Shown here piece after piece: positions 40,774 to 48,312 of a DNA stretch of 64,000 nucleotides. The translations under genes were made by a program, and so were the position numbers. The stretch is from an uncultured Dehalococcoidia bacterium (GTDB lineage Bacteria > Chloroflexota > Dehalococcoidia > Lucifugimonadales > Lucifugimonadaceae): NCBI GenBank assembly GCA_958295935.1, contig OY282385.1:930001-994000 (forward strand), given 5' to 3'. Every line of letters starts with the position of its first letter. The stretch's first letter is position 1. The notes beneath the pieces were generated by a model, which was not told the origin of the DNA, did no database searches, and worked only from the letters and a program-made list of their open reading frames with translations.

Positions 40774-41832
40774 ATGGAACCCTCAGAAGAGGACGTGAAG
40801 CTGACCTCGCTGGCTGAATGCGGCGGTTGAGCCGGCAAGTTCAGCCAGTCTGAACTGGCGCAGGTGCTGCGCCAACTGCCAGCCGCAAGTCACGATGACC
40901 CCAACCTCCTCATGGGGTTTGAAACGGGTGACGATGCCGCGGTCTATCGAATATCGGACGACGCTGCGCTTGTGCTCACGGTCGATTTCTTTCCTCCCAT
41001 CGTCGACGACCCTTTCGACTACGGCTCGATCTCAGCGGCCAACGCTCTCAGCGACGTATACGCCGTGGGCGGGCGTCCCGTCAGCGCGCTGAACGTTACC
41101 GGCTTCCCGCGCGACCTCCCCAAGGAGGTCTTGGGACGGGTGCTGGCCGGCGGCATGGAGAAAGCCTCGGAGGCCGGTTGCCCGGTGGTTGGGGGTCATA
41201 CGGTGAACGACCGGGAGCCCAAGTACGGCCTTGCGGTAACGGGCATAGTGGAACCGGGAAAGCAGGTTACCAATGCGGCAGCCCGTCCCGGGGATCGTCT
41301 GGTTTTGACCAAGCCCATAGGCACCGGGGTCGTGACCACGGCCCACAGGGACGGCGTTGTACGCGCCGACGTTCTCTCTGCGGCGGTGGATTCTATGAAG
41401 AGCCTCAACAAGGGCGCGTCCGAGGCCATGGTCTCCGCGGGGGCCAACGCGGCGACGGACGTCACGGGGTTCGGCCTGCTCGGCCACTTGCACTCGATGC
41501 TAAAGGCGAGCGGCGCGTCTGCCTGGGTGAGCAGGCGGGCTGTGCCGGTTCTGCCCGGGGCTCTGGAACTGCTGGAGGCAGGGATAGCTCCCGGGGGCAC
41601 GTATCGGAACGTGGAGTCGCTGGATGGTCGCGTGAGTTGGGATGCATCGCTGACCGAGTCCGACCGGCTGCTCTTGTGCGACCCACAGACTTCCGGGGGC
41701 ATGTTGATCAGCATTCCGGAGGCGAAGTTGGATGCACTCCTGCATGAGTTGAGCAACAATCGAACGCTTTGCGCCGAGGTTGTTGGCGAAGTGACCAAAG
41801 GGGATGCGGGGCGCATTTCGGTTACGCCTTGA
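40774..41832 (+). CDS. selD: Selenide, water dikinase, itself a selenoprotein (in-frame UGA)
   Basis: SelD makes selenophosphate from selenide and ATP. The frame starts at ATG 40774 and reaches a UGA at 40828-40830 after SLAECGG; it continues AGKFSQSELAQVL and on to a normal SelD body (GDDAAVYRI, DFFPPIVDDPFDYG, ANALSDVYAVGGRP, DVTGFGLLGHL), ending at 41832. The UGA falls where SelD proteins carry catalytic Cys or selenocysteine (the CGCxxK motif, with AGK after it). The product would be 352 residues with Sec19. Downstream, GGCGCA/TGCGCC (40857-40873) forms a hairpin with GGTGC loop, 26-33 bases past the UGA, a good bacterial SECIS; a nearer stem AGTTCAG/CTGAACT may stack beneath it. A simple pseudogene is unlikely given full conservation after the UGA. 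Confidence 0.93.
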
Positions 41833-44884: not shown

Positions 44885-45856
44885 TTACGAAGTCGGCAGG
44901 ACGGTGAGCAGGGCTTCTTCTAGCTCGGAGTGTGGAACGAAGTTCTCGAAGCGCGCCGCCACCTTGCCATCAGCGCCCATGACGAAGGTCCATTCCTGCG
45001 ATACCAGCCCCCACTCCTCCAGCAGCGGCGTAACCACGGCGCTGGACAGGTCTCCCTTTATCTCATGGGGATTTTGGTACAGGTCAACGTGGATGAAGCT
45101 GATCCTGTCCCCGTACTGTTCTCGAAGGGCTGACGCGACTTCCACCTGCGGCCCGCATACTGCATTCGTGCAGAACGCAGGGCTTGCAAATACAACTACG
45201 AAGGGCCGATCCTGCTCAAGCGCCTCGGAAACCGTTACTGCGTAGAGTTCAGGATCGTGCTGTGTGCCGGTGGTCAGTTCCGCGATCGAATCGACGTCGG
45301 CCAGCGTCCTGTTCCTGCTCGCCGGTGGACGTTCTCCCTTGTCCACCGACATGGTGCTCTCCGCCACCGGGAAACGGATTTCCACGAGGTCGGCAGTACC
45401 GTCGGGCTTGGGTACGGCGGCTTCCACCGACCAGTCCCCCACTCTGTCGAACCGCAGGTTGGTGACGTATATTCCGCGCGTGCCCAGGGGAAATTCGTAG
45501 AAGCGCGCGATGGTTTCCTCTATGGGGCCTTCCCTGGGCGCGCTTCCGTCAACGCCTTCGGGATAGAAGTATGACGATGTTCGTATTACCGGGATCTTGA
45601 TGAGGCCCAAGCTATCGTATAGCACGGCGGCGAAGCGTCTTTCGCCGGTGGCGAGGTCCGGAGTCGCAAACTCGGCGCTTACGCGCTCTCCCACCACGCT
45701 CCAGTTCCTGTGAGACTCGGCGGCCTCTCCGGACTCGCTTGACTGTGCGGAGGTTGCAGGCGGCGGCGAGGGTGCGGGGTCTGCCGCGCCGGAACACGCC
45801 AGCCCGGTGAGAAGCAAGGCGGCCGCGAGCCATACTTTCCATGCCCGGTTATTCAT
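44885..45856 (-). CDS. Thioredoxin-fold lipoprotein
   Basis: A 323-residue exported lipoprotein. From ATG 45856 it has a basic start, a hydrophobic signal and the lipobox TGLAC, then an Ala/Pro/Ser linker and a region of beta strands. The C-terminal 150 residues look like a thioredoxin fold with FVVVFASPAFCTNAVCGP, where Cys-X4-Cys replaces the usual CxxC, similar to SCO-like or peroxiredoxin-like domains. The frame opens 46 codons earlier but without a signal sequence. It is third in a minus-strand run with a redoxin and a selenocysteine rhodanese, suggesting an extracytoplasmic thiol or copper role. Confidence 0.75.
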   Translation of the reverse strand: MNNRAWKVWLAAALLLTGLACSGAADPAPSPPPATSAQSSESGEAAESHRNWSVVGERVSAEFATPDLATGERRFAAVLYDSLGLIKIPVIRTSSYFYPEGVDGSAPREGPIEETIARFYEFPLGTRGIYVTNLRFDRVGDWSVEAAVPKPDGTADLVEIRFPVAESTMSVDKGERPPASRNRTLADVDSIAELTTGTQHDPELYAVTVSEALEQDRPFVVVFASPAFCTNAVCGPQVEVASALREQYGDRISFIHVDLYQNPHEIKGDLSSAVVTPLLEEWGLVSQEWTFVMGADGKVAARFENFVPHSELEEALLTVLPTS

Positions 45857-45956: not shown

Positions 45957-47186
45957 TCAAAAACCGTCGGTGTAGGCGCCAAAGGTGAAGGCAAAGATTG
46001 CGAAGTTCTTGGAGTCTGAACTGAGTTTGAGGAGGTACTGTCCGAAACTTGGGGCCTCGACCACCTTGTACATGCGGCCCTCGGTTATGTTCATGAAACT
46101 ACGGCCTTGGGAATCGAATTGTACGTCCTCGCCGGCCTCCTCGGGGTTCATCCATCGGCCGTCCAACTCCACGAACACGTTGAACGGTTCGGGTCCCTGT
46201 GGGTCGATGACTACGTTGGCGCTGCGGGCATCCATCCTGAGCGCGATGTAGTCCTCCAGGTTCTCGCTGTCCCTCGCGTGAACGATGGCTTCTCTCTCGT
46301 TGCGCCACAGTCCATTTATGACCCACTGCTGCGGGGGGTACTCGCCAGAATCCGCCCAAGTGTCCACGTATTCGACGGTGGAGTTGGACCGCAGGTAGTA
46401 GTCGTCCTGCGCTGCGTACAGCCCGGCGGGCGAGTAGTTGCGGTCCACCCCGCCGTAGAGCTCCCGCGTGACGCGTTCGGCGGTCAGGTCCCTATCCTGG
46501 TTCTCCACCTGGCCGATGGGTATGTCGGCCACGTCGTATCCGGCCTCGGCCAGAGCCCTCCGTATCTCAAGTTCGGTCTCTACGTACTCGCCCTCTCCAA
46601 AGTGGCTGTACTTGAGTTGGCCGTCGGTTCCGATGAGGTATTTAGCCGGCCAGTATCTGTTTCCAAAGGCTCTCCACGTGTCCATCTTGTTATCGAGCCC
46701 GTGTGCCCAAGCCAGGCCGTTCTCCTGAACCGCGTTTTCTACGTTGGCCCTGATCTTCTCGAACTCGAACTCCGGCGCGTGGATCCCCAGTATGGCCAGA
46801 CCGTGGTCGGAGTACTTGTCGTGCCACTCTATGAGAAAGGGGAAGGTGCGAATGCAGTTGACGCACGTATAGGTCCAGAAGTCGACCAGCACCACCTTGT
46901 TGTCTGAGACCAGCCCGCTGATAGTCAGTGGGTCGGTGTTTATCCACCCTTCAATTCCATTGACTTCCAGAGCGGACTTGACGGTTCGATTTCCTGTGGA
47001 GGTCGTGGACTCTTCCCCGTCGGACGGGGCAGCGGTCGCCTCTGTGGGAGGCGTCGAGGCCGCGGGGGCTTCGTCGCCGCCGCCGCAGGCTGCGATGAAC
47101 AGGGCCAATGCAGCGAGCGCGGCCATTGATACGAAGCCGCGCATCAGTACTATGCGGCCTGTGAAGATGTGCGAGGCGATGGTCAT
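45957..47186 (-). CDS. DipZ-like redoxin lipoprotein
   Basis: About 409 residues. A signal peptide ends with the lipobox FIAAC followed by GGG and a Thr/Ala/Pro-rich linker, so it is anchored outside the membrane. A TlpA-like thioredoxin domain follows with VDFWTYTCVNCIRTFPFL (active-site CVNC) and AILGIHAPEFEFEK. The C-terminal half (ALRMDARSANVVIDPQGPEP to FAFTFG) resembles the beta-sandwich domain found at the end of DipZ proteins. The membrane CcdA part of DipZ is absent. Starts at 47186 or 47144 are possible. It likely reduces or oxidises thiols outside the cell membrane. Confidence 0.83.
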   Translation of the reverse strand: MTIASHIFTGRIVLMRGFVSMAALAALALFIAACGGGDEAPAASTPPTEATAAPSDGEESTTSTGNRTVKSALEVNGIEGWINTDPLTISGLVSDNKVVLVDFWTYTCVNCIRTFPFLIEWHDKYSDHGLAILGIHAPEFEFEKIRANVENAVQENGLAWAHGLDNKMDTWRAFGNRYWPAKYLIGTDGQLKYSHFGEGEYVETELEIRRALAEAGYDVADIPIGQVENQDRDLTAERVTRELYGGVDRNYSPAGLYAAQDDYYLRSNSTVEYVDTWADSGEYPPQQWVINGLWRNEREAIVHARDSENLEDYIALRMDARSANVVIDPQGPEPFNVFVELDGRWMNPEEAGEDVQFDSQGRSFMNITEGRMYKVVEAPSFGQYLLKLSSDSKNFAIFAFTFGAYTDGF

Positions 47187-47424: not shown

Positions 47425-48312
47425 TTAGCTCTCTATGGGGCAGGACAGGTCATCGCCCCACTCTCTCCAGGATGCATCGTAGTTTCTGACGGAGGGGTAT
47501 CCGAGCAATTTGAGCGTCCAATACACGTGCGCCGCACGGATGCCTCCCTGTCAGTAGGTGATGACGTTCTTGTCGGGCGTAACGCCGCGGGCCTTCAAAA
47601 TGCGGCGCAGGTCATCTGCCGGCAAGAGCGTCGGCACGTCTCCGCGGGTCAGGAAGTTGGTCCATTCGAGATGTACGGCTCCCGGTATTCGACCGCCGCG
47701 TTTGGTACCCCGCTTGTTTTCGCCGGTCCATTCCGCGTCGGAGCGCACGTCGAGCAGCACGGTTTCCCGTTCGCCGATAGCGTCGATCACCTGTTGGCGG
47801 GAGGCGAAGATTTCAGGATTGGGTTTCGGCGAGAAGGAGGCTGCCGGGTAGGAGGTTTGCCGTCGGGACAGTGGACGTTTTTCTGCGAACCACTTGGGAA
47901 ATCCGCCGTCGAGCACCTTGACGTTGACGTGGCCGTAGTAGTGGAGCGCCCATGCCAGTCTGAAGGCGTACAGGCAGCCTGCGGAGTCGTACCCGACAAC
48001 CTGTGTGTCGTCTCCGATGCCGAGGCGGGACATGGCGCCGGCGAACTGTTCCGGGCCCTGGATATGCGTCCGGTCTTGAAGCGAAGTCTTGTAGTAGTGG
48101 TCGATGACCCTCACGGCGCCGGGTACGTGGACGCGGCCGTACTCTTCCGGCAGGTCGGTATCTACGATGCGGACCGACGGATCCTCGAGATGCTGCTCCA
48201 GCCAGTCGGTGGTTACGAAGATGCCGGGGTCAGCGTATCCCCGCTCGCGGGGAGGTGTGATGTTCAAATGGTTGGCCAAGTCGTCCTGTCCGGTTGCTTT
48301 CAGGCTCTGCAC
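47425..48312 (-). CDS. Two-domain rhodanese (sulfurtransferase) with selenocysteine at the active site
   Basis: The frame runs from ATG 48312 through KNVITY, meets UGA at 47553-47551, and continues QGGIRAAHVYWTL, LLGYPSV and YDASWREWGDD to TAA at 47425, giving 295 residues with Sec254. In ordinary rhodaneses this motif is YCxxGxRAAH..W..L and then YDGSW.EWG, with the Cys carrying the persulfide, so UGA sits exactly on the catalytic residue. The first domain (VRIVDTDLPEEYGRVHVPGAV) lacks a catalytic Cys as usual. Seventeen bases after the UGA the hairpin CGTGC/GCACG (47538-47526) displays GGC, fitting a bacterial SECIS. It heads a minus-strand run with two thioredoxin-like lipoproteins. It could handle sulfur or selenium; which one is unknown. 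Confidence 0.93.

Follow-up and report, generated by a model that had tools for sequence, protein, structure and literature searches.

In 2005, a survey of the Sargasso Sea described a rhodanese-related sulfurtransferase (COG2897) that contains selenocysteine (Sec) and whose gene has a predicted SECIS (PMC1088965). It was reported again from the GOS data (PMC2398784) and is listed in a review (PMC9312934). In the latest listing, it appears as Sec rhodanese “form 4”, with the Pfam domain PF00581 and the motif UxxG (PMC13188914). Accessions listed for this family are MQG53192.1 and MCY3690685.1. Our literature search found no characterized native Sec-rhodanese, and searches for SAR202 or Dehalococcoidia together with selenocysteine returned no paper on this rhodanese by title or abstract.

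Here, we analyze a 64-kb stretch of DNA from an uncultured Dehalococcoidia bacterium (henceforth the window). The host is a marine bacterium whose genome is a single contig of 2.75 Mb; its nearest named relatives are SAR202-type Dehalococcoidia (Chloroflexota). Taken as a whole, the locus is best explained, with high confidence, as a two-domain rhodanese in which an in-frame UGA is decoded as Sec; the enzyme would probably transfer sulfur through a Se-S intermediate.

The first-pass annotation had described a frame of 253 codons that stops at UGA and then continues for 41 codons, through QGGIRAAH and YDASWREWG, to a TAA. We confirm this arrangement in the sequence, where the UGA is the sole interruption of the frame (Table 1). 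The start codon is uncertain: the first in-frame start is a GTG at 48312, and homology with orthologues begins at about residue 10 to 25. The read-through protein matches PF00581 in two stretches, corresponding to two rhodanese domains (3.9e-38), and the solved rhodanese 1uar matches it over nearly the full length (residues 25 to 293 of the window protein, 6e-50). By homology, it is thus a member of the rhodanese superfamily. The UGA had been placed at the position of the persulfide Cys, and alignment bears this out: residue 254 pairs with the Cys in the second-domain loop of both 1uar and 3hwi, and with the TGC or TGT codon of Cys orthologues. The active-site loop of this domain reads U-Q-G-G-I-R-A, with no second Cys. 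The first domain has no Cys at the corresponding place, as is usual in the tandem-domain rhodanese architecture. No signal peptide was recognized by eye, and the protein is probably cytoplasmic. The same genome also carries a Cys rhodanese paralogue (L099, G000:C1:1550545-1551375; loop CRIGERS), which is 37 to 39% identical to the Sec form.

Table 1. Features of the rhodanese locus and its surroundings, in window coordinates.
Feature	Position	Strand	Remarks
Predicted Sec tandem-domain rhodanese gene	48312..47425	-	295 residues with UGA read through
In-frame UGA, residue 254	47553-47551	-	Active-site Cys position of rhodanese
Core of predicted bacterial SECIS hairpin, CGTGC-GGC-GCACG	47538-47526	-	Starts 12 bases past UGA
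Probable lipoprotein, thioredoxin-like domains, CVNC motif	45957..47144	-	Conserved neighbour; lipobox by eye
Probable lipoprotein, thioredoxin-like by eye only	44885..45856	-	Conserved neighbour
selD (selenide, water dikinase)	40774..41832	+	In-frame UGA 40828-40830 (GGUAGK)

TGA occupies the active-site codon in 63 distinct related genes, including that of the window, from dozens of species; these genes share ancestry and hence do not represent 63 independent events. Many species of the window's own family and order have the UGA form, as do some species from further orders and classes of Chloroflexota. In other genera and clades, the best orthologue has TGC or TGT at this codon. A few relatives had been flagged for a different stop (TAA in G016 and G018; TAG in G092), but the active-site codon in those genes is an ordinary Cys.

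A single base separates TGA from TGC or TGT, and the window's SECIS is weaker than those of its relatives. These observations would fit a misread or dying Cys rhodanese, produced by sequencing error, recent nonsense mutation, or pseudogenization. As a general account, this is refuted by the occurrence of TGA at the same codon throughout the 63 genes and by purifying selection that continues past the UGA, and we regard it as very improbable. For 28 closely related Sec genes, we obtain pN/pS values of 0.215/0.748 over the 40 codons upstream of the UGA and 0.256/0.757 over codons 10 to 39 downstream of it. The two sides are therefore under equal constraint, which indicates that selection on the protein persists beyond the UGA; this includes comparisons with the window gene itself. 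There is no sign of frame decay. In codons 4 to 9 after the UGA, where the hairpin lies, the synonymous difference drops to 0.043, as against 0.75 outside. This collapse indicates that an element acting at the nucleotide level overlaps these codons.

The annotation had pointed to a CGTGC/GCACG stem with a GGC loop as a possible SECIS. We find it at the position described, and the comparison among relatives puts it well beyond chance. Of the 63 distinct UGA genes, 62 have a hairpin of at least five contiguous base pairs with a GGC or GTC loop, at a constant spacing from the UGA; all 24 Cys genes lack it. Mean contiguous stem length is 7.2 in UGA genes versus 0.67 in Cys genes, where synonymous shuffling leads one to expect 0.76 and 0.69, respectively. 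Four of the eight stem pairs show double (compensatory) changes, such as CGTGC/GCACG to CGTTC/GAACG in L115 and L117. In an alignment of 18 sequences, hand-picked for diversity, the covariation score of the hairpin was matched by none of 500 shuffles. The sole UGA gene with a broken inner pair (CGC for CGT) is L069 (G031), which may reflect decay, a strain mixture, or a tolerated change.

The window's own hairpin is the weakest of the set, with a stem of 5 bp compared with 7 to 8 bp in most relatives. It stops at a C/U mismatch, where a Val codon stands in place of the pairing Gly codon of most relatives. The bacterial SECIS model calls for an upper stem of 4 to 16 bp, a loop of 3 to 9 nt with G in one of its first two positions, 16 to 37 nt between UGA and loop, and an energy of -7.5 kcal/mol or lower (PMC13188914). 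The geometry of the window hairpin agrees with this model (5 bp stem, GGC loop, 17 nt from UGA to loop). Its energy is -5.7 kcal/mol alone and -7.5 kcal/mol when forced within the 45 bases after the UGA; the free 45-base fold reaches -10.7 kcal/mol with a different shape. For the 56 distinct Sec sequences, every free fold has an energy of -10.7 kcal/mol or lower. The hairpin is not the minimum-energy fold of these 45 bases, making up about 5% of the ensemble, and the 36-base fold after the UGA is no better than shuffles. At the Rfam gathering cutoff, the 64-kb window yielded tRNAs only. Support for the SECIS thus comes from the comparative tests rather than from the window's own fold. In view of the short stem, its nonminimal energy, and the unexceptional 36-base fold, this species may insert Sec with low efficiency.

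The search for selA, selB, and tRNA-Sec that the annotation had recommended found all three in the genome, along with selD. SelB, SelA, and SelD score above their cutoffs (337, 516, and 381 bits, respectively), and the tRNA-Sec has the anticodon UCA. With its own in-frame UGA, selD adds another selenoprotein gene to the window, at a distance of about 6 kb from that of the rhodanese. The tRNA-Sec also bears on whether a changed code or a suppressor makes the UGA specify Trp or some other standard residue, which could keep the frame open past the UGA. However, an ordinary tRNA-Trp with anticodon CCA lies in the window, the window's selD terminates at a TGA (41830), and homologues have Cys rather than Trp at this position. 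The chance that the UGA encodes a standard residue is therefore close to nil. We accordingly reject the error, pseudogene, and Trp readings on the conserved TGA, the constraint past it, the two tRNA anticodons, and the selD stop.

Decoding of the UGA as Sec is as strongly supported as sequence allows. The UGA is conserved, constraint is equal on its two sides, the hairpin is constrained and absent from Cys genes, and the machinery is present; the gene is thus best regarded as a genuine Sec-rhodanese, neither an error nor a pseudogene. The original proposal of a Sec-rhodanese is upheld on each of the three points set beforehand as able to overturn it: the Sec genes are not missing, close relatives either keep TGA or have true Cys codons in separate clades that lack the hairpin, and the frame does not decay.

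Sec and Cys have been exchanged repeatedly in this family. The tree requires seven Sec/Cys changes, at least four of them forced by well-supported branches. L068, nested in a Sec clade, marks a recent Sec-to-Cys replacement; as the tree is rooted only at its midpoint, the deeper changes may have run either way. Within the family, SelB scores above the cutoff in 27 of 27 UGA-form genomes versus 13 of 21 Cys-form genomes (Fisher test, P = 0.0005), counts that were taken by hand from related and in some cases incomplete genomes. At the order level, two UGA genomes (G080 and G086) have no SelB match above the cutoff, yet have a strong tRNA-Sec. One genome with a Cys-form main orthologue (G043) encodes a second, distant rhodanese (L133, G043:C8:22958-23794), about 37% identical to that of the window, with UGA in the loop UGGGARAS, followed by a separate hairpin of seven pairs.

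As to mechanism, the hairpin immediately 3′ of the UGA would direct its decoding by SelB and tRNA-Sec. In the finished enzyme, the selenolate would attack a donor of sulfane sulfur, such as thiosulfate, a persulfide, or a polysulfide. The resulting Se-S intermediate on the enzyme would replace the Cys persulfide of ordinary rhodaneses, and its sulfur would be handed to an accepting thiol, which might belong to a thioredoxin-type protein. Sulfane-sulfur transfer of this kind is the likely chemistry, rather than that of a CxxC-type redox center, because the rhodanese loop lacks a second Cys.

Two genes for probable lipoproteins lie downstream of the rhodanese on the same strand, and their products are probably located in the envelope; that of 44885-45856 has no match in Pfam or NCBIfam. 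Of 30 rhodanese loci, 14 have the first of these neighbors and 14 the second, whether the enzyme is of the Sec or the Cys form; other lineages have other neighbors. A conserved same-strand neighbor with thioredoxin-like domains could suggest that the Sec enzyme works mainly in redox chemistry, for example by reducing peroxides or persulfides with thioredoxin, and not as a donor of sulfur. Reviews expect most uncharacterized selenoproteins to have redox roles. We nevertheless consider it unlikely, since UQGGIRA offers no resolving Cys, the neighbors look exported while the rhodanese has no signal peptide by eye, and these neighbors accompany Cys forms too. It is also conceivable, though rather doubtful, that an envelope relay of thioredoxin-like proteins, encoded next to the Sec rhodanese, receives sulfane sulfur or reducing power from it in a dedicated selenium-dependent step of sulfur trafficking, typical of SAR202-type Chloroflexota and repeatedly turned to Cys in some lineages.

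The Sec protein might instead serve the Sec pathway as a selenium carrier, holding the element as a perselenide and delivering it, for example, to SelD. The nearby selD in the window would fit, and a part for rhodanese in the transport of selenium is discussed in PMC9369223. In relatives, however, selD is not among the recurrent neighbors within 4 kb, and Cys orthologues occur in genomes with no SelB match above the cutoff, so the function appears independent of the Sec pathway. We therefore judge a carrier role improbable, and retain sulfur transfer as the favored function.

Standard gene calling ends this rhodanese right before its active residue. Across many marine bacteria that form a large group, a sulfurtransferase would therefore be annotated without its catalytic site. 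Nature here offers Sec and Cys orthologues side by side, with SECIS kept or lost, and they make a good test case both for the advantage of selenium in sulfur transfer and for the course of Sec/Cys exchange.

Other rhodanese-type selenoproteins, the CxU Sec rhodanese (NF041203, form 3) and the rhodanese/DsbD fusion TsoB (NF045694, form 5), are more distant. The window protein scores 35.9 against a cutoff of 115 for NF041203, with the match at residues 118 to 149, away from the Sec site, and TsoB is absent among its family matches. It shares full-length homology and an active residue in the second domain with the thiosulfate/3-mercaptopyruvate sulfurtransferases (1uar, CysA2 3hwi, SseA 1urh, and bovine rhodanese 1rhd), but differs in having Sec for Cys and the loop UQGGIRA instead of CRIxERS or a mercaptopyruvate-type loop; the NCBIfam cutoff for SseA (NF008557) is not reached (146.1 versus 250 bits). 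With the COG2897 Sec rhodanese, it shares the rhodanese domain(s), UQGG as an instance of UxxG, a bacterial SECIS just past the UGA, widespread Cys homologues, and a marine origin. Compared by domain and motif, the two show no difference, and on this basis the window gene is of the catalogued COG2897/UxxG kind and not a new one. To that kind we add its distribution in Chloroflexota, a repeated Sec/Cys exchange accompanied by SECIS loss, and a conserved neighborhood.
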